A DNA stretch of 31,264 nucleotides. Origin: a virus. The notes beneath the pieces are model-generated. The model ran no database searches. It worked only from the letters and a program-made list of their open reading frames with translations, and had not been told where the DNA came from. A program made the position numbers and the translations under genes. The stretch is taken from positions 1-31,264 of IMG/VR virus record IMGVR_UViG_3300045284_000266; one strand, given 5' to 3'. Positions 7,717 to 24,231 of the stretch are shown one piece after another. Each line of letters starts with the position of its first letter. The first letter of the stretch is position 1.

Positions 7717-8985
7717 TTAGGCGATGAAGCCCCGACGTAGAATGTTATCGCTCGACATCTTCCAGGCCTGAATATGCCCTAAGCGTGTGCCGAAGGGATT
7801 GTCCAGATCCTTCTGGCTGCGCTGATAGCGCTCGGTCTCGGTGGCTTGCAAGGCCATGTCCAGCTGCAAATCGTGCAGGCGCTCATTCGTCTCGCGACAG
7901 GCGACGATCCGCCGCTTGACCTCGGCCGCCGCCAGCATCGTGACGACCTGCCGCCACTTCGTCGCCATCTGTCCGCGCTCCAGGGGGTAGCCGGCGAGAT
8001 AGCGGAGTATCACCCGATCGGGCTCGGCGTAGCAGCAGCCGCTCGACCAGACGCCCGTGCTGGCGTTGTAGGCCGCCTGCGCCGGCGTGATCAGGCCCAG
8101 CGTGCGGTCGCGAATGCCCGACCGCGCGATCACCCGTCCCACTGTGCCGGGGTCGGTCGAGCCGTTCAATGGATCGCAGCAGAAGCCCGCGCCCCAGCCG
8201 CCGCAGTCGGCGGTCTCGTACTCCAAGAGCGCCTGGCAGTCGTCGACCGTCAGCCCGCCGCCGTTGGTCGTGCGCTGATAGACATCGAGCGCGGTCACGA
8301 AATTCGCGGCGTTGGTCGGGTTGATCGCGTTCAACACCGGCGCTTCGTACAGGATGGGCCTGACGACCAACCACCGGCGCCCGACGATGATCACATTGCC
8401 GCCCGCGATGGAGACCTGAATCGGCTCGATCCGCCAGCGGTCGAAGGTGCGCGTATCGTCGAAGCGATCCGCCGCGCTGAAGTACACCGCGATCTCACTG
8501 ATGTCTGTGACCGTGGTGGGCAGCGTGATGGTGAACGTATCGTCAAAGCCGGTATTGAACTCGTCGCTATAGACCAGCGCGCCGCCGCCCACCGTCGCGC
8601 TCGCGATCAGGGTCAGCTGCTCCACGCCCATGGCCTGGATATGAAACTCGGGTGCCATGACCGCCACCCTTCTCCCGGTCGCGTCGACGTTGCGGTAGCG
8701 CACCTGGCTGGCGTCGTTGAAGCGTGGCCACGATAAGGGCTCGGTCTCCACATACTGCGGCGCGACGCGGTAGCCCAGATAGTCGAGCAGCATCTGTTCG
8801 GCCCGCTCGATCGCGCGCCTGAGATCGTCCCGCCCGGCGGTGTCACTGCCCTGCCAGCTATACTCGCGCAGCAACCCACTGCACTTGGACTGGTCGATAA
8901 TCACGCGGTTATCGGCCAAACCCCAAAAAAGCCACGGGTTCATCCCGATCTCTGCGCGCCAGATGTCGAGCGGTAGCAGGTTCAT
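7717..8985 (-). CDS. Virion protein, possible head-tail connector with long insertion
   Basis: This gene encodes 422 residues and overlaps the preceding gene as ATGA. The N-terminus (residues 50-80, DDLRRAIERAEQMLLDYLGYRV) is a helical pair of the type seen in gp6-like head-tail connectors, which are much shorter. The C-terminal 90 residues are again helical and charged (EVKRRIVACRETNERLHDLQLDM). The middle is beta-rich and contains a Cys group (ADCGGWGAGFCCDPL, then SSGCCYAEP) that could bind metal or form disulfides. It lies between the glycan cassette and the tail tube gene, the neck region of the map. The connector role is inferred from location and the helical ends; no family match is certain. 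Confidence 0.6.
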   Translation of the reverse strand: MNLLPLDIWRAEIGMNPWLFWGLADNRVIIDQSKCSGLLREYSWQGSDTAGRDDLRRAIERAEQMLLDYLGYRVAPQYVETEPLSWPRFNDASQVRYRNVDATGRRVAVMAPEFHIQAMGVEQLTLIASATVGGGALVYSDEFNTGFDDTFTITLPTTVTDISEIAVYFSAADRFDDTRTFDRWRIEPIQVSIAGGNVIIVGRRWLVVRPILYEAPVLNAINPTNAANFVTALDVYQRTTNGGGLTVDDCQALLEYETADCGGWGAGFCCDPLNGSTDPGTVGRVIARSGIRDRTLGLITPAQAAYNASTGVWSSGCCYAEPDRVILRYLAGYPLERGQMATKWRQVVTMLAAAEVKRRIVACRETNERLHDLQLDMALQATETERYQRSQKDLDNPFGTRLGHIQAWKMSSDNILRRGFIA

Positions 8986-9413: not shown

Positions 9414-9499
9414 TGGTACAAACTCCAGAGCAGTCCAGCCAGCACCAGCAGCGCCAGCACAAAACAGAGCAGCGCCCATTCCAGCGGCGTGTGTTTCAT
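9410..9499 (-). CDS. 29-residue single-pass membrane peptide
   Basis: This micro-gene encodes MKHTPLEWALLCFVLALLVL followed by AGLLWSLYQ. It has a short polar N-terminus and one hydrophobic helix covering about residues 8-26. Its ATG (9499-9497) overlaps the LamG gene's stop and its TGA (9412-9410) overlaps the next gene's start, both as ATGA. That leaves no spare base on either side, which is strong evidence that it is translated. It could anchor or partner the neighbouring DUF1360 membrane protein, or act as a holin-like peptide. No function can be assigned from sequence. Confidence 0.7.
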   Translation of the reverse strand: MKHTPLEWALLCFVLALLVLAGLLWSLYQ

Positions 9500-10440
9500 C
9501 GCGTCGCCGCGCTCAGCATCTCGGCCGCACTCAGCGTGCGATTAAACACCGCCGCGTGCGCCAGCAGCCCACTCCAGACTTGCGCGGCCGCCGTGCTGAG
9601 GCTGCCGATAATGGTTTGCGTTGCGCTAAGACTGCCCGCGAACACGCCGAGCCCAGTCGAGATCGGCGTGATCGCGATGCCGTTCACGTAAAAAATCATC
9701 TCGCCCACGCCCGCATTTGCGCTTTTGTTCCATGTCAAGCCCAGGTGGAACCAGTCGATCGGGCTGAATGCTGTTTTGGCGGCCCCCAGCGACGTGCCGC
9801 CGGCCACGTATAAACAATCGATTTCGCTGTTGGTGGTCGGCTTGAACAGTCCGGCCCGGTTGCTGGCGTCGACCAGCATGTACATCGCGCGCCGGGTCAC
9901 ACCGTCCAGCCAGACAGCCGGCGCGCTGACCTTACACCAGATGATCTGCGACCCCGCCGCGCCGTTGAAGGCGGCCGCGAGGCTGGGGGTAAAGATATTG
10001 TTATACGATGCCGCGCCGTCGAACGACGGCGCGGTGCGCCCGTCGATCCCCGGTTGGCCCAGCGTGACCCCGACATACGCGCCGTTCCGATTATTCCCGC
10101 TGCGGTCGAATGCCACGCTGCCCGACAACTCATCCATCGGCCAGTAGGCGATCGGGCCGAGACCCGCGATCTTCGCGCCATACGCCGATCCGAGATAGCC
10201 GCTGACCACGCGCACCGGCTGCGGTGGGCCGGCAAGCGTGAAGCCATTCCCGCGCGCGACCACGATCGGCAGCGGCTCATTGGCTTGCGTCGGGCGGTTG
10301 TCGAACACCTCGACCATCGGGCGCATCGGCCCAGCCTCGACCACGCGACCGTCGCTCACAACAGAGACGCGCAGCGCCGGGCCGCCGTCGGGCGACGCGC
10401 CGGAGACAACCACGGGTATCGCTGGCCCTGCTTGTGTCAA
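9496..10440 (-). CDS. LamG / concanavalin-like carbohydrate-binding protein
   Basis: This gene encodes 314 residues. The best start is TTG at 10440-10438, which overlaps the upstream stop as TTGA and has GGGAG eight bases before it. The N-terminal 90 residues are beta-rich repeats (VVVSGASPDGGPALRVSVVSD, then PVRVVSGYLGSAYG). From about residue 95 a laminin-G-like domain begins (IAYWPMDELSGSVAFDRSGNNRNG) and runs to near residue 300 (SLSATQTIIGSLST, then LAHAAVFNRTLSAAEM). This is the classic jelly-roll signature of LamG_3 proteins. Such domains bind glycans and occur in phage fibres and decoration proteins. Its position in the glycan cassette suggests that it displays or binds the sugar made there. 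Confidence 0.85.
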   Translation of the reverse strand: MTQAGPAIPVVVSGASPDGGPALRVSVVSDGRVVEAGPMRPMVEVFDNRPTQANEPLPIVVARGNGFTLAGPPQPVRVVSGYLGSAYGAKIAGLGPIAYWPMDELSGSVAFDRSGNNRNGAYVGVTLGQPGIDGRTAPSFDGAASYNNIFTPSLAAAFNGAAGSQIIWCKVSAPAVWLDGVTRRAMYMLVDASNRAGLFKPTTNSEIDCLYVAGGTSLGAAKTAFSPIDWFHLGLTWNKSANAGVGEMIFYVNGIAITPISTGLGVFAGSLSATQTIIGSLSTAAAQVWSGLLAHAAVFNRTLSAAEMLSAATR

Positions 10441-10715
10441 CGCTTGGTCTCCCACTTCCGAATAACGACCGTCACACCCGACAGCGCCAGCCAGGTCAGC
10501 GCCCAATCGCCCTGATAATCGATCCAGAGCGCGATCGGCAGTGCAATCCACACCGACAGGCACATGATGCAGGCCAGCCCGCGCCCGATCCATGTCTCTG
10601 GCTTCGGCAGGCCACGCAGCTTCGTAAAGACACTGAACGGGCCTTCCTCGTCAGACAGCATCCGGCTCAGGCGGTAGACCGCGAGACTGGCCAGCACGAA
10701 GGTCATCAGCTGCAT
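10437..10715 (-). CDS. DUF1360-family membrane protein
   Basis: A 92-residue protein with two or three hydrophobic segments. It contains the DUF1360 pattern: an N-terminal helix with AVYRLSRML, then DEEGPFSVFTKLR, then a Cys-containing helix ACIMCLSVWIALPIALW, and a last helix LTWLALSGVTVVI. Start candidates are ATG 10715 (GAGG four bases upstream) and ATG 10706 (TGATG overlap with the isomerase stop); I chose 10715 on the ribosome site. DUF1360 proteins occur in spores and in many phages without a known role. Here it may be a membrane station for the sugar-making enzymes encoded upstream. That is inference. Confidence 0.8.
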   Translation of the reverse strand: MQLMTFVLASLAVYRLSRMLSDEEGPFSVFTKLRGLPKPETWIGRGLACIMCLSVWIALPIALWIDYQGDWALTWLALSGVTVVIRKWETKR

Positions 10716-11203
10716 AGCGCCTCGGTCAGCCAGTGCCCGATCGCCAGGTGGCAATCTTCGATAATGCCGTAGTGTGTATGCGGCACGTTCACCACCAGGT
10801 CGATGGGCGTCGGGTAAACATTCGCACGGCCCGTCACAATTGCGCGCGGGATGTGCAGCAGCCAGGCCTGCCGCAGCAGCGTGATAATGTTCTTGGACGT
10901 ACCGCTGCACGACAGACAAATCAGCCGATCGTCCATGCGCGCCACGCGCTCAAACTCTTGTGCTAGCGCGACCGCATAGCCCTCATCATTCGCCCAGGCC
11001 GTCAGCACGGCTGGATTACTGCCCAGCGCCTGCACGCGCCGCGCTGCCTGCTTCGACAGGTCGCAGGCCCAGTGCTGCGCAGAGGAAGCGCTGCCGCCGT
11101 TCCCAGCCAGCCAGAGCGTGCCCTGGCAGCCCTGCACGAAGGCGATCAGCGGCGCGATGTCGAGCCGTACAAGCGCCTGCGTCAGCTCGTCGATGTAGTT
11201 CAC
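10706..11203 (-). CDS. gmhA: SIS-domain sugar isomerase, phosphoheptose isomerase (GmhA-like)
   Basis: A 165-residue SIS-domain protein. GmhA converts sedoheptulose 7-phosphate to D-glycero-D-manno-heptose 7-phosphate in the cytosol. Matching features are the phosphate-binding loop GNGGSASSAQH (34-44), the second loop LSCSGTSKNI (97-106), and the C-terminal helix HYGIIEDCHLAIGH (144-157), which follows the E..H...H pattern of GmhA enzymes. The length is slightly short of the usual 190. It starts at GTG (11203-11201), overlapping the kinase stop as GTGA, with GAGG upstream. The kinase that uses GmhA's product is encoded directly upstream, which makes the heptose assignment much stronger than SIS homology alone. 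It could instead act on another sugar phosphate. Confidence 0.85.
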   Translation of the reverse strand: MNYIDELTQALVRLDIAPLIAFVQGCQGTLWLAGNGGSASSAQHWACDLSKQAARRVQALGSNPAVLTAWANDEGYAVALAQEFERVARMDDRLICLSCSGTSKNIITLLRQAWLLHIPRAIVTGRANVYPTPIDLVVNVPHTHYGIIEDCHLAIGHWLTEALCS

Positions 11204-12123
11204 GAGTACACCACCTCAACGCCCGGCACGCCGACTCGGATCGGCACATGCCGCAGGCCCAGCGCTTGAATAATCGCCTGGTGGCGCTCAGGCGGCGCGA
11301 GAAAGAGGAGAAAGCCGCCGCCGCCGGCGCCGCACAGCTTGCCACCCCACGCGCCGGCTCGTGTCGCTTGGCTATACCAGCCCTCAATCTGCGCATCGGC
11401 AATGAACTTACTTTTAATAAGCCAGGCCTCATGCATGATCTCGCCGCACAGATCCAGATTGTTGACACTCAGCGCGAATGCAAACTGACGCGCCATACCG
11501 GCCAGCCGCCGCACATCATCGCGATCCTGCGTCTGGCTGGCCAGCACCGCGCCCGCGTCGCCCTGGCGTGCGAGGCCAGTATCGAGCAATAGGCAGTGCG
11601 CTGATAAGGCGTCAAGGTCGCAGGTGATCGGCTCGACCACCACGCCCTTGGACGTAAAGCCCAGGAGGTTCAGCCCGCCATAGGCGGCGGTGTACTGGTC
11701 TTGCTTGCCGATGGGCTTATCACACCGCTCAATTTCAACCTTACACGCACGCTCTGCGAGCGCAACAGGCGCGGTGTGCTGCCGCAGTGCTGCGAGTAAT
11801 CCCACCGTAAAGGTGCTGCTGCTGCCCAGTCCCGATCCGCCCGGCACGTCGGCGATCGAATGAATCTCGATGCCACGCTCCACGCCGGCCATCACGAGAC
11901 ATGCGCGTATCAACTCGTGCTGAAGCTCGCTCACGCTTGTGACATTTTCTGTCACAGAATACGCCGCGCGAATGCTGCCGTCATACTTGTCGTTCACGGC
12001 GACATACACATACTTGTCGATGGCGGCCGCAACGACGGCGCCCGGCTCCTCGCTGTAGAAGCTCGGCCGGTCGCTGCCGCCGCCGACGAAGCTGATTCGG
12101 AGGGGTGTACGAGTGAGAATCAT
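11200..12123 (-). CDS. hddA: GHMP kinase, D-glycero-D-manno-heptose 7-phosphate kinase (HddA-like)
   Basis: A 307-residue GHMP-superfamily kinase. HddA phosphorylates heptose 7-phosphate at C1 using ATP, in the GDP-heptose route. The start ATG at 12123 has GGTGAGG just upstream and gives the canonical N-terminus TRTPLRISFVGGGSD. The ATP loop is PGGSGLGSSST (94-104), a candidate catalytic Asp is in GKQDQYTAAYGG (139-150), and the third GHMP motif is GGKLCGAGGGG (260-270). It lies four bases after the preceding glycosyltransferase gene and overlaps the gmhA start. A phosphatase (GmhB) and a nucleotidyltransferase (HddC/HldE) are not in the window, so the host or unseen genes must finish the pathway. 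A fucose or other sugar kinase is the main alternative. Confidence 0.85.
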   Translation of the reverse strand: MILTRTPLRISFVGGGSDRPSFYSEEPGAVVAAAIDKYVYVAVNDKYDGSIRAAYSVTENVTSVSELQHELIRACLVMAGVERGIEIHSIADVPGGSGLGSSSTFTVGLLAALRQHTAPVALAERACKVEIERCDKPIGKQDQYTAAYGGLNLLGFTSKGVVVEPITCDLDALSAHCLLLDTGLARQGDAGAVLASQTQDRDDVRRLAGMARQFAFALSVNNLDLCGEIMHEAWLIKSKFIADAQIEGWYSQATRAGAWGGKLCGAGGGGFLLFLAPPERHQAIIQALGLRHVPIRVGVPGVEVVYS

Positions 12124-12127
12124 CGCC

Positions 12128-12949
12128 TCACCAGGTCTTATGCGCGAACAAAATAGGCTCGCCGTCCAGCGTTGCGGTCTCTTTGACGCCCCAGCCGGCG
12201 TAGGGCGGCCCGAGCTCGCCCCAGTGGCCGTGCGTCGAAAAGGATTGTGGCAGCACGACTCTCTGAAACGACTCATTAATGCATAAGTTCAAAGTCCACT
12301 GCTGCACCGCGATGTGCGCGAAGTAGGGCGCGGTGTCGAGCCATCGCCGCAAGTACGCCTGCCACAGCTTCAGCCAGGTCGAACGGGTGGCCACCACGCA
12401 GCCGGCGTTGCCGATCGGGTCAGCCGCGCTGGTGTGAAACCGTTGACCGATCTCGTCATCACTGACGAGCGGCTGAATGCGGCACAGCTCGTTGATCATA
12501 TTGTCGCCGCCCTGCTTCGGCTCATTCGGCCCGATGCCGATCTGGCCGTCTTGCCACGCTTGCAGCCATGCCCACTCACCCTCCGAGAACGGCCGCTGCA
12601 TCTTCACGTCGCCGTCGATGCAGATAATCACCGCATCGTCGGCGGTGTCGAGATACGGCAGCCAGTTGCCATGCTGGATGCACCCGTTGCCGGGGTTGCC
12701 GAGTGAGCGATCGAGCATCCCCGATGGAATGGTGTAGCACCGCACATCGTCCGGGCAATCCGGCGGCTCGCAGCCGACGAGTCCGAGCGCCACACTGGCC
12801 GCGCCCGCGTTGCGCGCCAGATAGTCGAGCGTCCCGATCTCTTCGAGCCGGGAGAGGTAGCCGTGCGTCGCGATCGTCGTGATTACGACCGCACGAACAC
12901 CAGCCCTTGCCGTGTCGAGAACGGATGCCCGCCGTTCGCGCGTATCCAT
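12128..12949 (-). CDS. GT-A-type glycosyltransferase (DGD motif)
   Basis: About 273 residues, using the ATG at 12949, which overlaps the methyltransferase gene by 67 bases and has only a weak purine-rich leader. No ATG, GTG or TTG lies closer to the conserved part, so the true start is uncertain. The Rossmann-like first strand is VVITTIATHGYLSRL. The nucleotide-sugar metal site IICIDGDV carries DGD at residues 112-114. Later text (GNAGCVVATRSTWLKLWQAY and AHKTW at the C-terminus) fits a GT-A fold with acceptor region. It is coupled to the other glycan genes. The sugar donor and acceptor are unknown. The DxD motif and fold order are seen; the transfer to virion protein or glycan is inference. 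Confidence 0.75.
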   Translation of the reverse strand: MDTRERRASVLDTARAGVRAVVITTIATHGYLSRLEEIGTLDYLARNAGAASVALGLVGCEPPDCPDDVRCYTIPSGMLDRSLGNPGNGCIQHGNWLPYLDTADDAVIICIDGDVKMQRPFSEGEWAWLQAWQDGQIGIGPNEPKQGGDNMINELCRIQPLVSDDEIGQRFHTSAADPIGNAGCVVATRSTWLKLWQAYLRRWLDTAPYFAHIAVQQWTLNLCINESFQRVVLPQSFSTHGHWGELGPPYAGWGVKETATLDGEPILFAHKTW

Positions 12950-13440
12950 GTTGTTGCGTCCACGTCCAGTCGCCATCCGTGCTGCTCCAAAAGACTTATC
13001 CAATAGCTCTGTGGCTGACAGTTGACATGGTGCCAGCCCGGAAAGCCCGGCGGCGCGGCGGTCAAGAACAGCACCCGCCCAGCCGCGAACGTCTGCATAA
13101 AATTTGGTATAAATTCGGCTTCGACGTGCTCTACAAACTCGACACACCAGATCAGGTCGAATTCGGCTGTTTTCATCGGCCCGGTTGTAAAGTCGTGAAT
13201 GAGTACATCGGGGCGCGTGATGGTCGAGTCGCCGTCAATCCCCAGCGCGTCAACTCCTAGCGCTGCCGCCACGTCGATCATCCCGCCCGGCCCGCAGCCC
13301 ACATCCAGCATCGTCGCTATGCCGTAGCGCGCGATCAGGTACAGCAGAGTCGGGCGGTCGACGTTGCTGTTGCCGAAATGGCCGCCCAGGTGCGGCGGCA
13401 GCGTGCGCTCCAGGTCGGTTAGCGGCTGATCGTCGGCCAT
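12883..13440 (-). CDS. Class I SAM-dependent methyltransferase
   Basis: This protein has 185 residues, with the SAM-binding motif I LDVGCGPGG at 45-53, an acidic strand-2 end GIDGDS near 69, and motif IV wording DLIWCVEFVEHVE around 95-107, the layout of Methyltransf_11/23 enzymes. The C-terminal half (HHVNCQPQSYWISLLEQHGW) matches small-molecule or glycan methyltransferases, where HxxN follows a Pro-rich turn. It lacks the (D/N)PPY motif of adenine methylases, so DNA modification is unlikely. It sits among three glycosyltransferase genes with overlaps at both ends (22 and 67 bases). O-methylation of the transferred sugar is the simplest reading. Confidence 0.85.
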   Translation of the reverse strand: MADDQPLTDLERTLPPHLGGHFGNSNVDRPTLLYLIARYGIATMLDVGCGPGGMIDVAAALGVDALGIDGDSTITRPDVLIHDFTTGPMKTAEFDLIWCVEFVEHVEAEFIPNFMQTFAAGRVLFLTAAPPGFPGWHHVNCQPQSYWISLLEQHGWRLDVDATTWIRANGGHPFSTRQGLVFVRS

Positions 13441-14075
13441 CCGCGCTTCCTCCGCTCTTCATAGAGCCGCTGGTCACGTTCGGCCTGCGCCCGGCCCTCC
13501 TGGTACACCGCATCATCATCGCCGCCGAAATAGGGATGGTCGTGAAACAAGGTGGCCCAGGGCGCTTTCACGTACAGCGCATCCCCGATCGCGCGCTGGC
13601 ACAGCTCAGTGTCGCCGAACGCATGGTCGTACCAGACGGGCCAGCCGCCGTAGCGATCGAGCAACGATCGGCTGATCAGAAAATGGCAGCTATGGCCCAC
13701 CTCGTGATGCCCGTCGTTGAGGCCGACCATGCCCGGTGTGTCGCCAAAGGTCTCGCGGTAGGCGCTATAGGCGCGCTGTAGCCAGTGCTGGCCCGGCAGC
13801 AGGTCGTTGGCGAGATTGACAATCAGATCGAACTCTGGCCAATAGTCGGTTGCCTCGGCCAGCGCGTTCCAGTAGCCTTTGCGCTGGCTGTCCATCCGCC
13901 ATAGTGGCAGATCGGACTGCGCCAGCGCCCGGTCGACGACTGGATCGCGATCGACCATGCAGATCAGCTGCCAGGTCTCTGGCCCCTGCTCCATCCCCGC
14001 CGTCGAGAGCAGCCGCCGCACGTTGCGCACGGTCTGGTCGGCGCGGCCCCGGCAGGGCATGATCGCGGCGATCAT
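13419..14075 (-). CDS. GT-A-type glycosyltransferase, family-2-like
   Basis: A 218-residue protein whose ATG (14075) overlaps the stop of the upstream glycosyltransferase gene as ATGA. The N-terminal strand is IAAIMPCRGR with TVRNVRRLL, the start of a family-2-like fold. The metal site appears as NLANDLLPGQHWL (about 87-99), an AND version of the usual DxD. The acceptor-side acidic motif is FGDTELCQRA (153-162), followed by WATLFHDHPYF, a His-rich segment common in phage-borne members. The reduced DxD may mean altered metal use. It shares operon and style with its neighbours; the donor and acceptor are unknown. Confidence 0.8.
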   Translation of the reverse strand: MIAAIMPCRGRADQTVRNVRRLLSTAGMEQGPETWQLICMVDRDPVVDRALAQSDLPLWRMDSQRKGYWNALAEATDYWPEFDLIVNLANDLLPGQHWLQRAYSAYRETFGDTPGMVGLNDGHHEVGHSCHFLISRSLLDRYGGWPVWYDHAFGDTELCQRAIGDALYVKAPWATLFHDHPYFGGDDDAVYQEGRAQAERDQRLYEERRKRGWPTISR

Positions 14076-15124
14076 CGCTTTGGCCTCAGCACCTTCGTCG
14101 CTGCCGCGTCCGGCGTCAGCACGTCGGTCGCCTGGAGGATCGGCAGCGGAGACGGCGGGTGCGGGTCGTCGAACACCGGGATGACACGCACCGGGATGCC
14201 GTGCTCTAAGAGCCAATCGGCCTGGTCGCGGGTCACATCCTTGTAGCGGTCGATCGCGTTGTTGCCCAGCCGGATCGCGTTCGCTCGGTCGGGATACTCC
14301 CAGGTCTGCGCGCCGCGTTCGTCGCCCAGATACTCGACTCTGACCTTGCCGTCCGCCATCTCGGCGGCGTTTGGGAACGGCGCGCCCATCGCGGCGTCGC
14401 GGGCGATACCCGCCAGATCGGCGTCGCCGCCGCAGCAGCTGCTCATTGGAATCTCTCCCTTGCTATCGCGATAGCGGACTAAGACCGCCTCCATAAGACT
14501 CGGATCGCCGCCGTAGAACCGCTGCATCCGATCGCCCTCGTAGACCCGGTACGTGAACACCGGCTGCGGCAGCCGATAGCCGCACACGCCGGCCATGGCC
14601 AGACGAAGATGCCCCGACCAATCCTCCCAGGCGTCCACGCCCTCATCCCAGCCGCCGACCTGTCTCCAGTGCTTGGTCGGCGTGAGCGCGGTCACGACGT
14701 GGATGTTGTGGTGCGTCATGTGGTTTTGAATATACTCCGGCGCCGCCCTGAGCATCAGGCGCCCGTCGCGCTCTAGCGTGTAGGCGTCGGCATAGACATA
14801 GCCGTGCGTCCCGCGCCCGTACTCGCGCAGCAGATTCTCGACCGCGTGGGGCAGCAGGTAGTCGTCAGCGTCCAGCGGCAAGATGAACGCCCCGCGCGCG
14901 GCTGCGAGCGCCCGGTTACGCGTGTGCGCCGGGCCGCGCCGTTCGCCATCCGATGGCAGGATTGTGACATTCGCCATCGGCGCGACATCCGCCCCGCCGT
15001 CGCAGGCGATGATCGTCTCACAGCGATCGGCCAGGCTCTGCCAGGCGACGCTGGCGGCGGCAAGGCGCACGTGCTCCGCGTGGCGTGGGCCGCAGGGGGT
15101 GATGATCGAGACGAGCGGCGTCAT
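14072..15124 (-). CDS. GT2 glycosyltransferase with extra C-terminal domain
   Basis: This gene encodes 350 residues. Residues 1-215 are a GT2 domain: SIITPCGPRHAEH, CDGG at 42-45, the donor-orienting segment GPAHTRNRALAAARGAFIL, DAD at 85-87, and the acceptor motif WEDW at 166-169. From about 226 a different module follows: a Cys-Cys start (SSCCGGDADLAGIA), then KVRVEYLGDERGAQTWEY and IRLGNNAIDRYKDVTRDQADWLL. The Y-G-D...DVTRDQAxxLL wording resembles small head-tail-region proteins of other phages, so this may be a glycosyltransferase fused to a virion-binding domain. That resemblance is an impression. It starts as ATGA with the small gene upstream. Confidence 0.85.
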   Translation of the reverse strand: MTPLVSIITPCGPRHAEHVRLAAASVAWQSLADRCETIIACDGGADVAPMANVTILPSDGERRGPAHTRNRALAAARGAFILPLDADDYLLPHAVENLLREYGRGTHGYVYADAYTLERDGRLMLRAAPEYIQNHMTHHNIHVVTALTPTKHWRQVGGWDEGVDAWEDWSGHLRLAMAGVCGYRLPQPVFTYRVYEGDRMQRFYGGDPSLMEAVLVRYRDSKGEIPMSSCCGGDADLAGIARDAAMGAPFPNAAEMADGKVRVEYLGDERGAQTWEYPDRANAIRLGNNAIDRYKDVTRDQADWLLEHGIPVRVIPVFDDPHPPSPLPILQATDVLTPDAAATKVLRPKR

Positions 15125-15396
15125 CTTGCCTGCTTTCCGCGCGGCTGCGGCTGGGCCTGCAACAGCTGCTGCGTTTTGAAGCGGTGCAGTTCGACCGTGC
15201 CGACCTGATCCAATTCTTCCTGGAGGATGCGATCGCGGTTTTCGCGCGCAGTGCCCTGGATACCGCGCGTCTCGATCTTGTCACCCAGCATACAGACAAG
15301 CAGCGATGTGTTGGGTGCGCCATCCTCGATCGCGCGGATATCATCACTGCGAATGATGAGGGTGTCGCCGCCCTCAGTTGTGAAGGTACAAAGCAT
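15121..15396 (-). CDS. Small protein of unknown function downstream of capsid gene
   Basis: A 91-residue protein with a strong AAAGGAG ribosome site. The first 55 residues (MLCTFTTEGGDTLIIRSDDIRAIEDG, then LLVCMLGDKIETRG) form a small beta-barrel-like unit whose pattern recalls FlbD/Sm-like folds. The C-terminal 35 residues are charged and end with Gln/Arg-rich text. It is the first gene after the major capsid gene and is ATGA-coupled to the glycosyltransferase. It could be a head decoration or completion protein. I do not recognise a family with confidence. Confidence 0.65.
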   Translation of the reverse strand: MLCTFTTEGGDTLIIRSDDIRAIEDGAPNTSLLVCMLGDKIETRGIQGTARENRDRILQEELDQVGTVELHRFKTQQLLQAQPQPRGKQAR

Positions 15397-15426
15397 GCGC
15401 GATCTCCTTTCACGCCTCCGAGTTGA

Positions 15427-15480
15427 GCGCGGGGCAGCAGTGGAGTCCCTGCTGTTCGGGCCGTCGCCCTAGCCCCGCGC
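15427..15480 (-). other. Two-tier hairpin between capsid gene and following operon
   Basis: Just after the capsid stop there is a perfect 9-bp outer stem (GCGCGGGGC at 15427-15435 with GCCCCGCGC at 15472-15480) and a nested 6-bp stem (CAGCAG 15435-15440 with CTGCTG 15449-15454). No T-run follows in the direction of transcription, so it is not a standard terminator. It may set mRNA stability or reduce read-through from the abundant capsid message into the glycan genes. Confidence 0.55.
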
Positions 15481-15489
15481 GGTTCCGTC

Positions 15490-16899
15490 CTAACTATTCG
15501 GGTAGAAGTATGGCACTGGGCTTGCACTGAGTCCGCCGTTGACGTAGTAGCCCGACGCCGGATCCCACTCGCGCTCGTGAATGCTGTAGGTGTAGCGCAG
15601 GTTCTGAAAGCGCGCCGCCAGAAACGGCGTGAGCAGAATCAGCCGCGGCCGCTCGACCACCTCGACCTGGACGCAGGTGTGCGTCGGCGACAGCCGGCTG
15701 AACAGGAAGCGGCCGTTATCCAGCACCTCGAAGTAGCCGCCCGGCGCCATGCGGCTGGCCGCCGCGACCGCCTCGGCGTTCATGTCGAAGTACTCCCAGA
15801 ACAAACTGGGCTGGCCGTTGACGGTGAGGGGCAGCATGTAGATGTCTGACTGGTACGTGCCGACCACGCCGCCGGCCGCGACGGTCTCGGCGATCGTGTC
15901 GTCGATGACCACCTCGTACTCTTTGCCCTCGATCGGCAGCATGCGATTGGTGCGCAGCCGGTCGCGCATGTTGGTCTGCTCTTCAAGGCTGGATGTCCGG
16001 ACAATGCCGTAGCTGGTCGGGCAGCCGGTGGTCGCATAGATGCACGGCCAGATCTGGGTGAGGGTCAGCCACGCGCCGTAGCGCATCGTAAACACCCACT
16101 TGACCTCCAGGCCCAGCTGCTCGGAGAGACGCTCCATGTTGTTCACGGCGTTGGCCAGCAGGTTGTAGATCGTGCCGCCGGCGGTGTTGAGCGACGCGCC
16201 GTTGAAATCGACCACCAAACTATCGACCGCCGCGCAGAGCTGCCCGGTTCTGGCGTCGCGCTTGCTGGTCGCGATCTGGCGGTCGAGGCCATTGAACTGC
16301 TGGTAGCCCTGGCTGCCGGCGGTGGTGATCGCGTTGCCGGTGTAGACGTTCCGCGCGTAGTCGCGCGCGTAACCGCTGAACAGCTCGCCGATCTTGTACT
16401 CGTACTCAGTCTGAAACACGCGCTGCCAGTTGATCGGCCCCGGCGTCGGCACATCGCCGCCCGGCTGGCCCAGCAGCACGTTATCGCGGAACTCGCCGCG
16501 GTTGATCGTCTGGCCGGCGTACTTGATGTTCAGCACCTGGCTCATCCGCCCCTGCTGGCCGAAGGGGAAGGTCTGCGTGCAGGTTTTGAAGCTGCCGACG
16601 GTCGGCCAGTCGCTACACGCGGCGGTGGGCTCGCTGCCGGTGCTGGAGAGCTGCCCGGTCAGGATTGGGTACAGCTCGTTGGTGTTGACCGACTTCTGCA
16701 CCGGGATGCGGCCCGCAATACCCTTGGGCAGGATCATCGCGTTGATGATCTGCTTGTTCAGGCCGGGATAGCCGAGCAGGCCGCCGGGGCCGTGCAGCGG
16801 CACGCCGGCCGCCGTGCCGGCGTCCTTCGTGGCGATCATGTTCAGCAGCGCCACCGCGTCGGGGCTGAGCGTCTGCTGCTGGGCGGGACTGTAAGTCAT
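15490..16899 (-). CDS. Major capsid protein (HK97-fold)
   Basis: A 469-residue protein starting at ATG 16899, with AAGGAG six bases upstream, which rules out the longer in-frame start. It lies directly after the protease-scaffold gene and is the only large, beta-rich, non-enzymatic product there, as expected for the capsid subunit. The first 50 residues carry a helical part (PDAVALLNMIATKDAGTA) and the motif PLHGPGGLLGYPGL (34-47). Then come ILPKGIAGRIPV, QTFPFGQQGRMSQVLNIK, a helix-rich centre (MRYGAWLTLTQIWPCIYA) and a C-terminal beta region (VVERPRLILLTPFLAARFQNL). The motif also occurs at the N-terminus of the protease-scaffold. HK97 fold is inferred from context. Confidence 0.85.
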   Translation of the reverse strand: MTYSPAQQQTLSPDAVALLNMIATKDAGTAAGVPLHGPGGLLGYPGLNKQIINAMILPKGIAGRIPVQKSVNTNELYPILTGQLSSTGSEPTAACSDWPTVGSFKTCTQTFPFGQQGRMSQVLNIKYAGQTINRGEFRDNVLLGQPGGDVPTPGPINWQRVFQTEYEYKIGELFSGYARDYARNVYTGNAITTAGSQGYQQFNGLDRQIATSKRDARTGQLCAAVDSLVVDFNGASLNTAGGTIYNLLANAVNNMERLSEQLGLEVKWVFTMRYGAWLTLTQIWPCIYATTGCPTSYGIVRTSSLEEQTNMRDRLRTNRMLPIEGKEYEVVIDDTIAETVAAGGVVGTYQSDIYMLPLTVNGQPSLFWEYFDMNAEAVAAASRMAPGGYFEVLDNGRFLFSRLSPTHTCVQVEVVERPRLILLTPFLAARFQNLRYTYSIHEREWDPASGYYVNGGLSASPVPYFYPNS

Positions 16900-21354: not shown

Positions 21355-22924
21355 GGCGCGCTGCCCTCCCTAATCGCTTGGCCCAGCCCATCTCCGACTC
21401 CAGCAGCGCGGCCGCGTCGTCATCCGCCGCGTCTTTCGTGGCTAACGCCGGCGGCGGCTGCTTGGCCGGCTCCTGCGTCGGCGCGCTCTGGATCAGCGCA
21501 AGACTGGCCGGGGTGGGGTTCGGCGTGGTCTGCATCTTCTCATCGTCCGATATCTGGCCGCCGGCCGTGGCGTCGCCGGCGACTAATTCCTGCGGCAAGT
21601 CCTCGCTGTCGACCGCCAGCTGGCGCGCCATCGCCGGCGATATCTCGCCAGAGTCGACCTGCACCTTGCGGGTGTCGGCCCTGAGCTTCTGCACCTCCGC
21701 GCGGGCCTTCTGGTCGCGCTGGTCGTTCTCATCGGTGAATTGCAGCTCGGTGGTCGACGGCAGTACACGGTCAGAAACCGTCTGCTCCCACCACTTGATG
21801 AACGCCGGCAGCGCGCCCTGCCCCTTCGCGGCGTCGTCCAAGACCAGCGTCTGCGTGCCGGTTCCTAATCCCTGCCCCGAGAGCGGCTGCAAACTCTGGA
21901 CGGGCACGCCGATGTTATTGGCGTAGATCAGATAGGCGTTGTCGCGCTCGTCTTTCGGCACGAAGTTGGTCAACAGCTCTTTCAGCTTGACCTCGACCAT
22001 CGATATCGGCGTGTCACTGGGGATCGCGCCCAGGATCGCGCCGAGGTAGTAGACCAGCCCGCGCGCCTGAGCGTCGGCCTCGCCACTTTTGAGAATCGCC
22101 TGCAAGGTGGGGTCGTTGATGCCCTGGAGAAACACCAGCTTATTCGCGCCGCCGCCGGTCAGGTTCTCGTACACCAGCTGCTCCATCGCGGCCAGCTTGG
22201 CGATCGTCTTGTAGGCCCGGCCGGCCGCGCAGCTGCCCACGCCGAACAGCTCGGCGCGGGGGCTGGGCTGATCGGCGTACATCAGCACCTGATCCCAGCG
22301 AAAGATCTGCTGCGTGCCATTGATCGGCATGTAGCGCAGCGGGTAGGCCAGATTGCCGGTGCGGATGCAGCGCAGCGAGTCCAGGTGGTACAGGCCCGTG
22401 ATCTTCGCGCCACTTTGCGCGGTCGTCACCGCCGCCTCGGCGAACGATCCGGTCTCGACGCCCATCACGGTCTGCGCCTTGACCTTGATCTTGACCTTGA
22501 TCTTGACCACCTCCTCGCCCTGCCGCTGGATGCGGATGAACACGCCGTTATCGGTGGTCAGCAGATCGCGCATGGTTTTCAGCGAGAACGGCACCCAGCC
22601 CTCGCCGCCGTTGGCGCGTTTGAGCAGCTGCTGGCTGGCGGACACGCGGCGGGACGAGTCGTTGCTATCCTTGACGGTGTAGCCGTGCGCCGCGAACCGC
22701 GTGGCCGCGATCGCCACCGCCGCCGCCCACATGTCCTCTTTGTGCGGCGTGTTCGCAAGCACCCAGTCGCGGCGCGGGCTCCAGTATTGGGGCAAGTCGG
22801 TGTAGCCGGGCTGGAACGCGGAGGCCATCCACGGAAACGCCAGGCCGAAGACCGCCGGCGCGCTCGACGGATACGCCAGCGTGTCGCCTTTGATGGCGGA
22901 TGGAGGAGCGAAGCCGTTGGTCAT
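21347..22924 (-). CDS. Portal protein
   Basis: A 525-residue protein that forms the ring at the single capsid vertex through which DNA enters and leaves. It lies between terminase and minor head genes. Telling stretches are the stem/clip region (KHEDMW-type helix at 62-66; LYHLDSLRCIRTGNLAYPLRY), the long helices NNIGVPVQSLQPLSGQGLGTGTQ and FIKWWEQTVSDRVLPSTTELQF, and DENDQRDQKARAEVQKLRADTRK near the C-terminus. The segment KIKVKIKVKA comes from a 12-base tandem repeat. The last 70 residues are Pro/Ala-rich and disordered-looking. It is ATGA-coupled to terL. Confidence 0.9.
   Translation of the reverse strand: MTNGFAPPSAIKGDTLAYPSSAPAVFGLAFPWMASAFQPGYTDLPQYWSPRRDWVLANTPHKEDMWAAAVAIAATRFAAHGYTVKDSNDSSRRVSASQQLLKRANGGEGWVPFSLKTMRDLLTTDNGVFIRIQRQGEEVVKIKVKIKVKAQTVMGVETGSFAEAAVTTAQSGAKITGLYHLDSLRCIRTGNLAYPLRYMPINGTQQIFRWDQVLMYADQPSPRAELFGVGSCAAGRAYKTIAKLAAMEQLVYENLTGGGANKLVFLQGINDPTLQAILKSGEADAQARGLVYYLGAILGAIPSDTPISMVEVKLKELLTNFVPKDERDNAYLIYANNIGVPVQSLQPLSGQGLGTGTQTLVLDDAAKGQGALPAFIKWWEQTVSDRVLPSTTELQFTDENDQRDQKARAEVQKLRADTRKVQVDSGEISPAMARQLAVDSEDLPQELVAGDATAGGQISDDEKMQTTPNPTPASLALIQSAPTQEPAKQPPPALATKDAADDDAAALLESEMGWAKRLGRAARRA
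22478..22507. repeat. 12-base tandem repeat inside the portal gene
   Basis: Two and a half copies of CTTGACCTTGAT (plus strand) encode the alternating Lys-Ile/Val run KIKVKIKVK of the portal protein. It is really a degenerate 6-base unit. It likely arose by slippage and stays in frame. Confidence 0.75.
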
Positions 22925-24231
22925 TGCTCAAACCTTTGCGACCAGACACCGTACCGAAGGGCATCGATTGAATGGTCGAATGCTTTGATGATCTTGCCGT
23001 TCGCGTCTTTGCGGTAGCTCAGCATCTCGGCGCGCAGATTGGTGCAGCGCGGATGCACCTTGACTCGGCGCCGGCCGTTGCTATCGAGCGCCAGCGCCCG
23101 CCGCAGCTCTTTGATGCTTTCCTCAACATCGCTCGGGCTGTTGCGGGTGTACACGCCGCCAGCATGCAAGCGGCCCTTCAGCTCGGCCGCGCTCTTATCG
23201 ACGACGGCATAGTCAGGATGCGGGTAGGGCAGCGCCAGAACGTCAGCCACATGGACATCCGAGAGCAGTCCCGCTTCGTCACTCTCGGCAAACACGTTGA
23301 TTGTACCATTCGATCGCACCTGGGCCAGCAGAAACACGCGCGGGTGACTATCGGCCGTCCACTGTCCTGTCTGCGCGTCGCGCACGCCCACGTAGCCGTC
23401 GTCAACGAACCAGAGGACTTCGCCCGCGCCCTCCTGATACTCTGCGTCGGCGGTCACGTTTCCGTCAGATGGCCCGTCGCTCCAGACGCCGAAGATTACA
23501 CCCGTCGCCTGCACCCACAGCCCGAGGCCCAGCCGCTGGTACTCCGTGCCCACACGCTCGCCGGTCTTGGCGTCGATGTGGCCCAGGCGCTCCAGTTTCT
23601 CTCTATAGGCGCGCCCCTCGGCTGTCCACTGCCCGCCCTGGTAGAGGCGCGGGTTATCTTCGTGCCGGCTGTGCAGCATCGTGACCGTTTGGGCCTGGGC
23701 GCGGATCCACAGCCAGTGGGTGGGCGCGTCCGGGTTGCAATCCGCCAGCAGCTGCTGGTAGGGCATCACGCCGTTGCGCAGCCGGGTGGTCAGCGCCAGC
23801 CAGGCCGCCAGATCCAGCTCGGTCGCCTCCTGGACATAGATCATGTCGTATTCGGTGCTCATGATCTTGCCGGGCTTGTCGAGGCCGCCCACCACGATTT
23901 CACTTTTGTTCGGGTAGTGGTAGGCCTGCCGGAAGTTGCGGCGCGGGCCGTCTTTGATTGGGTCACCGGTGGGCAGCACCTTATCCTCAAACGTGACCAG
24001 CGCGGCCTCGGACAAGCTCTCGCGCGTCTTGCGAATAATCAGCCCGCGCATGCCTGCGTATTTCAGCGCGCAGAAGTGTAGCTTCTCCAAACACGCGCGG
24101 CTCTTGCCCGTGCCGGCCGGGCCGCTGATCACGATCTCAGTCGCGCGACTGCGCCACAGATCGACCGCAGCGCCGTGGGCGCTGTAGCCGCGCGGTGGTA
24201 GTGGCTTATGCGTCGTCAGGGTCGAAAGCAT
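22921..24231 (-). CDS. terL: Terminase large subunit
   Basis: This 436-residue packaging motor cuts concatemeric DNA and drives it into the prohead. The ATPase has Walker A GPAGTGKS (37-44), an adenine-side segment LIIRKTRESLSEAALVTFED, and Walker B MIYVQEATEL at about 130-139 with its catalytic Glu. The C-terminal nuclease domain has the first acidic strand VLWFVDDGYVG, a second acidic site AVVDKSAAELK, and the final motif HSIDALRYGVW. It starts at ATG 24231, overlapping terS by 26 bases. The fold corresponds to the Terminase_6 / terL family; length is normal. Confidence 0.95.
   Translation of the reverse strand: MLSTLTTHKPLPPRGYSAHGAAVDLWRSRATEIVISGPAGTGKSRACLEKLHFCALKYAGMRGLIIRKTRESLSEAALVTFEDKVLPTGDPIKDGPRRNFRQAYHYPNKSEIVVGGLDKPGKIMSTEYDMIYVQEATELDLAAWLALTTRLRNGVMPYQQLLADCNPDAPTHWLWIRAQAQTVTMLHSRHEDNPRLYQGGQWTAEGRAYREKLERLGHIDAKTGERVGTEYQRLGLGLWVQATGVIFGVWSDGPSDGNVTADAEYQEGAGEVLWFVDDGYVGVRDAQTGQWTADSHPRVFLLAQVRSNGTINVFAESDEAGLLSDVHVADVLALPYPHPDYAVVDKSAAELKGRLHAGGVYTRNSPSDVEESIKELRRALALDSNGRRRVKVHPRCTNLRAEMLSYRKDANGKIIKAFDHSIDALRYGVWSQRFEQ

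Follow-up and report, generated by a model that had tools for sequence, protein, structure and literature searches.

A capsid-adjacent glycosyltransferase island with exchangeable heptose-type sugar genes in a group of uncultured phages

In the 31,264-bp viral record IMGVR_UViG_3300045284_000266 (hereafter the window, which may be a genome fragment), a set of sugar-enzyme genes separates the presumed gene for the major capsid protein (MCP) from the tail genes, and we found that this site is a conserved island with variable cargo in a group of related phages. A preliminary description, made from the window's letters alone, had placed a cassette of sugar enzymes there (positions 10,437 to 15,124), which family scans confirmed, and had taken it for an insertion; the latter idea was dropped, as glycosyltransferases at this site are the rule in the phage group and it is a kinase/isomerase pair that forms the variable cargo. 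Few phages have been shown to glycosylate their virions; we favour virion glycosylation as the function of the cassette, which would then be one loading of a modular island between capsid and tail genes, and give this reading about an even chance of being correct.

Related phages were collected through capsid similarity (31–94% identity), yielding 50 further contigs, 46 of which continue downstream from the capsid gene for 3 kb or more. Forty-one of these 46 carry a same-strand enzyme of family PF00535 within 10 kb, and 71 of 78 tallied PF00535 hits (a tally that mostly omits second domains of one open reading frame, ORF) fall within 10 kb behind the MCP gene, where about 10% would be expected by chance. 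The stretch from the capsid gene to g7717, the first conserved gene past the island, is complete in 40 intervals of 0.9–10.6 kb (median 5.1 kb), which hold a glycosyltransferase of the type that we call GT1 in 39 cases, a homologue of a second one, GT2, in 24 and a DUF1360-like gene in 36, with the relative order GT1, GT2, DUF1360 never disturbed. At one phage site (L156) the interval is nearly empty, its 913 bp carrying DUF1360 alone. Because the window's own gene order is found again in at least six other contigs, the cassette is more than a chance arrangement. The DUF1360 and LamG genes had both been described as coupled to the cassette; this stands for DUF1360 as judged by its recurrence, with a PF07098 match that stays below cut-off, while LamG, present in only 8 of the 40 intervals and hence not part of the constant frame, was dropped as a component of the sugar system.

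Across the phages, the identity of GT1 follows that of the capsid protein with a correlation of 0.96, like the structural genes, which the kinase and the isomerase-like SIS protein do not match, their values being 0.72 and 0.70 overall and, among close relatives, 0.03 and 0.37; all of these values are uncorrected for phylogeny. We favour virion glycosylation because the glycosyltransferase core is linked to the capsid gene in this way, both in position and in evolution, and because a precedent in mycobacteriophages is established. The main rival is that the cassette alters an envelope glycan of the host, such as its lipopolysaccharide (LPS) or capsule, blocking superinfection or keeping released virions off debris. 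Heptose enzymes in bacteria serve mainly envelope polysaccharides (PMC10680097), the bacterial relatives sit in envelope-polysaccharide loci, and pelagimyophage glycosyltransferases were interpreted as host-surface modifiers (PMC7029224); a core that keeps its place beside the capsid gene and evolves along with it, however, argues against such a role, as does the window's lack of a polymerase or export partner of the two glycosyltransferases scanned with Pfam and NCBIfam, and we consider this rival unlikely. Far less probable still is that the glycosyltransferases modify phage DNA bases as a defence against restriction: phage enzymes that glycosylate DNA are known (cited in PMC12619734) and DNA methylases occur in some relatives, but the genes lie among late virion genes, a position that, as the preliminary description had argued, favours the virion over DNA, and a Tet/JBP search, which had no positive control, revealed no base-hydroxylating enzyme in the window.

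The constant part of the island encodes GT1, which matches PF00535 (Glycos_transf_2) at 36.6 bits against a cut-off of 23.3 and has DxD and ED motifs that are invariant in 15 phages, identifying it as a family-2 glycosyltransferase. GT2 matches a PHROG glycosyltransferase (4e-7) and, judging from a fair structural model with a predicted local distance difference test score (pLDDT) of 80 that resembles many GT-A structures, is a predicted GT-A glycosyltransferase. Three GT-A enzymes had been proposed; the third, GT4 (12128–12976), gave no match in Pfam, NCBIfam, PHROGs or a PDB profile search, its model was poor (pLDDT 37) and the fold was not used, so that a conserved IDGDV stretch is the sole hint of GT-A. 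The proposed methyltransferase (12883–13440) was upheld as a class I S-adenosylmethionine (SAM)-dependent enzyme, with Methyltransf_23 and Methyltransf_11 both above the Pfam cut-offs.

Two further genes encode the heptose-type enzymes, a GHMP kinase described as HddA-like and an SIS protein described as a GmhA-like isomerase. For both, the nearest families in profile searches are indeed heptose-type, and both score below the curated cut-offs. The kinase has HddA as its best NCBIfam match at 105 bits (the NF049969 equivalog cut-off is 600, a value likewise not reached by any of 20 bacterial genomes tested), and both Pfam GHMP domains are over cut-off. Its closest solved structures are heptose kinases, 3k85 and WcbL. 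Activity of WcbL is abolished by mutating R13, D22, S118–S120, Q162 or D163 (PMC4691232), and the counterparts of all these residues are present in the window's kinase (R9, D18, S101–S103, Q141 and D142) and kept across the family copies, with the exception of S118/S120 in the distant G009. A kinase scan of the genome contigs returned no relative.

The SIS protein is homologous to solved GmhA structures (phmmer, up to 9e-14, residues 8–159) and its best NCBIfam match is GmhA, at 58.7 bits against a TIGR00441 equivalog cut-off of 209; it also falls under the Pfam SIS_2 cut-off (22.5 against 27 bits). In Burkholderia pseudomallei GmhA, the zinc ligands are H64, E68, Q175 and H183, reported as "completely conserved" in orthologues, and a D61A mutant retains 6% activity (PMC5705639). 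The window's protein has H44, D48, E149 and H157, thus swapping two of the four zinc ligands (E to D and Q to E), and S41 where GmhA has D61. With the zinc-ligand signature failed by the SIS protein and both enzymes far below curated cut-offs, the names GmhA and HddA denote likeness and not membership. The D/E pair is no peculiarity of the window: it is invariant in all nine copies of the family and is shared by phage Cr30 and L036, with the canonical set in L037 alone, and it is present in 69 of 69 resolved cases among bacterial SIS relatives (Chloroflexi, Acidobacteria, Proteobacteria and others), a count that is partly selected, as the E was built into one of the two search patterns, a selection that did not apply to the phage copies. 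An HddA-like kinase lies near the SIS variant in 27 of 80 bacterial loci, most commonly some 1 kb upstream, matching the arrangement in the phage; one locus (L087) is a full operon in the order HAD phosphatase, NTP-transferase, kinase, SIS, and another (L105) has a HAD phosphatase just upstream of the kinase/SIS pair. Judged by this gene company, the D/E subclass probably does the job of GmhA.

Comparison with distant relatives shows that the kinase and SIS genes are exchanged cargo, co-transferred between phages. Relative to the window, L024 (G007) has a capsid protein of 39% identity with a kinase of 75% and an SIS protein of 66%, and L172 (G037) shows 38%, 73% and 69%, respectively; in both, several kb of other genes separate kinase and SIS, and both genes are retained. 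Among the 50 phages, the five with SIS_2 are all found among the seven with the kinase (chance 1e-5, uncorrected). Each of the seven kinase genes is found downstream of the capsid gene, and four of five SIS genes lie 9–13 kb upstream of it. The phosphatase and the nucleotidyltransferase, noted earlier as missing, have no match in the window record, so a complete nucleotide-heptose pathway was not found there; they occur singly in sibling phages, beside the isomerase or the kinase. A GmhB-like phosphatase gene overlaps the SIS gene in L172 (PRK08942 152.5 bits, cut-off 178; TIGR01656 above cut-off), and genes for RfaE2-like nucleotidyltransferases overlap or abut the kinase gene in L206 and L025 (61 and 72 bits, cut-off 181.5); none of the 27 phage records searched has an HddC-type NTP_transferase. 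Sister islands also hold PseB-like dehydratases, an epimerase and three kinds of methyltransferase.

Some sibling phages show further features of their own. In L206, the capsid gene is followed directly by that of a PseB-like sugar dehydratase (12180–14270), which holds an intein with a LAGLIDADG endonuclease; four N6_N4_Mtase-type DNA methylase genes precede the heptose genes in L025 (642–8473), and a CcrM-like DNA methylase lies within the sugar island of L172 (15413–16192).

The same comparisons bear on whether the island makes a different sugar, the swapped metal site having changed the substrate so that the SIS/kinase pair yields an activated sugar other than a manno-heptose. The subclass-wide replacement of zinc ligands E68 and Q175 by D and E, scores far under the GmhA and HddA equivalog cut-offs, and the PseB-like dehydratases and epimerases of sister islands, which show that other sugars are made, all point this way; against it, the heptose-binding WcbL residues are all kept in the kinase, and the SIS variant is found, in bacteria and in sibling phages, in the company of GmhB-like, HddC-like or RfaE2-like genes. 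We regard a different sugar as a real possibility, though less likely than not, a judgement that concerns the sugar and not its acceptor and therefore overlaps the other readings.

Under virion glycosylation, the SIS enzyme would act late in infection on a ketose phosphate, for which sedoheptulose 7-phosphate is the likeliest candidate, and turn it into an aldose phosphate, which the HddA-like kinase would phosphorylate at C1. The nucleotide sugar would be finished by a phosphatase and a nucleotidyltransferase that come from the host or from genes outside the fragment. GT1 and GT2, perhaps with GT4, would then assemble a short glycan, capped by the methyltransferase, on a virion protein, the likeliest being the capsid protein or another protein of the head. 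The methylated heptose-type sugar on the virion anticipated by the preliminary description may thus be made here, both sugar and acceptor being proposed from the genes. Several points weigh against this reading, beyond the altered zinc ligands and the uncorrected correlations. The glycan is predicted from sequence, and the place beside the MCP gene could reflect late expression only. Furthermore, no single phage examined has all four heptose activities together, and tblastn of the capsid protein and GT2 against cultured phages gave no cultured relative or host.

The closest known systems resemble the island in part. Mycobacteriophages Che8, Corndog and Myrna glycosylate their virions, with capsid and tail-tube proteins as acceptors (Freeman et al. 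2023, as cited in PMC12363180 and PMC12619734), and share phage-encoded glycosyltransferases with the window; here, in contrast, these enzymes follow straight after the capsid gene in almost every relative, accompanied by exchangeable sugar-making genes, the glycan is a prediction, and the capsid protein has no relative among cultured phages. Caulobacter phage Cr30 has a cluster of a UDP-glucose epimerase, a family-2 glycosyltransferase, a D,D-heptose 7-phosphate kinase and a phosphoheptose isomerase, in which glycosyltransferase, kinase and isomerase are adjacent as in the window and the isomerase has the same D/E metal-site variant; the proteins, however, are about 34–35% identical, and Cr30 has no annotated virion gene within the 12.5 kb viewed. 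The first two enzymes of the bacterial nucleotide-heptose pathway are similar to ours, with kinase catalytic residues conserved, whereas the window holds two of the four steps, its isomerase has an altered metal site, and sibling phages use an RfaE2-like and not an HddC-like nucleotidyltransferase. Pelagimyophages (PMC7029224) likewise combine LPS-related glycosyltransferases with heptose-type sugar genes (rfaE), but in a hypervariable tail-fibre region, read as modifying the host O-chain, and not at a capsid–tail junction with a glycosyltransferase core.

The late genes of the window run on the minus strand in the order small and large terminase, presumed portal, long scaffold-like ORF, presumed MCP, cassette and tail genes, including the tape-measure protein (Table 1). 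The names portal and MCP are based on position and conservation, and neither protein has a family match. Most junctions in the cassette overlap, as had been described, by 4 nt (ORF15121/GT1, GT1/GT2 and kinase/SIS), 10 nt (SIS/DUF1360), 22 nt (GT2/methyltransferase) or up to 94 nt (methyltransferase/GT4); the GT4/kinase junction is instead a 4-nt gap. ORF15121 has no match in Pfam, PHROGs or NCBIfam family scans. Separately, the large terminase (window 22921–24231) is about 48% identical in relatives G001, G003 and G012, and seems to have been swapped, given that their capsid proteins are 84–93% identical.

Table 1 Features of the island and its borders, with further copies of the int-alpA RNA
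Feature	Position	Strand	Remarks
Presumed MCP, left island border	15490..16899	-	After portal/scaffold-like ORF; conserved in 81 contigs; Shine-Dalgarno at ATG 16899
int-alpA RNA (RF02996), between MCP stop and cassette	15415..15479	-	Rfam 46.9 bits, gathering 35.8
Small 91-aa ORF (ORF15121), first gene past RNA	15121..15396	-	In 7/40 intervals
GT1, family-2 glycosyltransferase, island core gene	14072..15124	-	PF00535; in 39/40 intervals
GT2, predicted GT-A-fold glycosyltransferase	13419..14075	-	PHROG match; AlphaFold model with GT-A matches
Class I SAM-dependent methyltransferase	12883..13440	-	Methyltransf_23 and Methyltransf_11 above cut-off
GT4, possible (unverified) glycosyltransferase	12128..12976	-	Start 12976 or 12949; 81-92% conserved in close group
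HddA/WcbL-like GHMP sugar kinase	11200..12123	-	Family matches; essential WcbL residues conserved
GmhA-like SIS protein	10706..11203	-	H/D/E/H replacing H/E/Q/H metal site; NCBIfam and PDB homology
DUF1360-like protein, constant right island border	10437..10715	-	PF07098 14.2 bits, cut-off 21; in 36/40 intervals, after GT1/GT2
LamG-like (Laminin_G_3) protein	9496..10440	-	TTG 10440 start inferred; PF13385 27.8 bits, cut-off 27.6; in 8/40 intervals
g7717, first conserved gene past island	7717..8985	-	Complete intervals contain it by definition; identity follows that of MCP at 0.97
int-alpA copies elsewhere	L007 11424; L009 10090; L010 3226; L015 11424; L153 11410 and 20563; L154 4610; L182 16153; others

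The RNA between capsid gene and cassette recurs behind the MCP gene in relatives, a model built from six copies retrieving 22 copies in 87 phage sources. Most copies checked lie within tens of bases behind the stop codon of one of three genes, those of the MCP and the presumed portal and g6160. Covariation is strong, in an alignment that was fitted to the model and so favours it: 94.8% of cells are paired, compared with 74.1% when shuffled and 32–50% when slid, and 16 of 18 pairs have changes on both sides. The RNA may separate expression of the abundant virion proteins from that of the low-level enzymes behind, which we offer as a guess. Its late-gene context here differs from the integrase/alpA context of the Rfam name, and three close relatives without it (L011, L017 and L008) have a different, GC-rich, hairpin-like sequence about 30–110 bases after the MCP gene.

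Clusters of glycosyltransferase, kinase and isomerase genes (Cr30) and phage virion glycosylation were known; the fixed capsid-adjacent island, the exchangeable sugar cargo and the metal-site variant are new. We tentatively propose, in a form that we think somewhat likelier to fail than to hold, that a re-loadable sugar site (capsid gene, RNA, glycosyltransferase pair, exchangeable sugar genes, DUF1360) is hard-wired in a large group of uncultured phages, and that distant phages swap kinase/isomerase pairs and re-dress their heads with methylated heptose-type glycans through a metal-site-swapped GmhA subclass. That subclass, with Asp/Glu for Glu/Gln at the metal, is spread through bacterial polysaccharide loci, and its substrate is directly testable. 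Should the island's position be a true guide to its function, heads coated with glycans would be usual across a diverse phage group, their sugar type exchanged like a cartridge, and this would affect how these phages stick, persist and are recognised.

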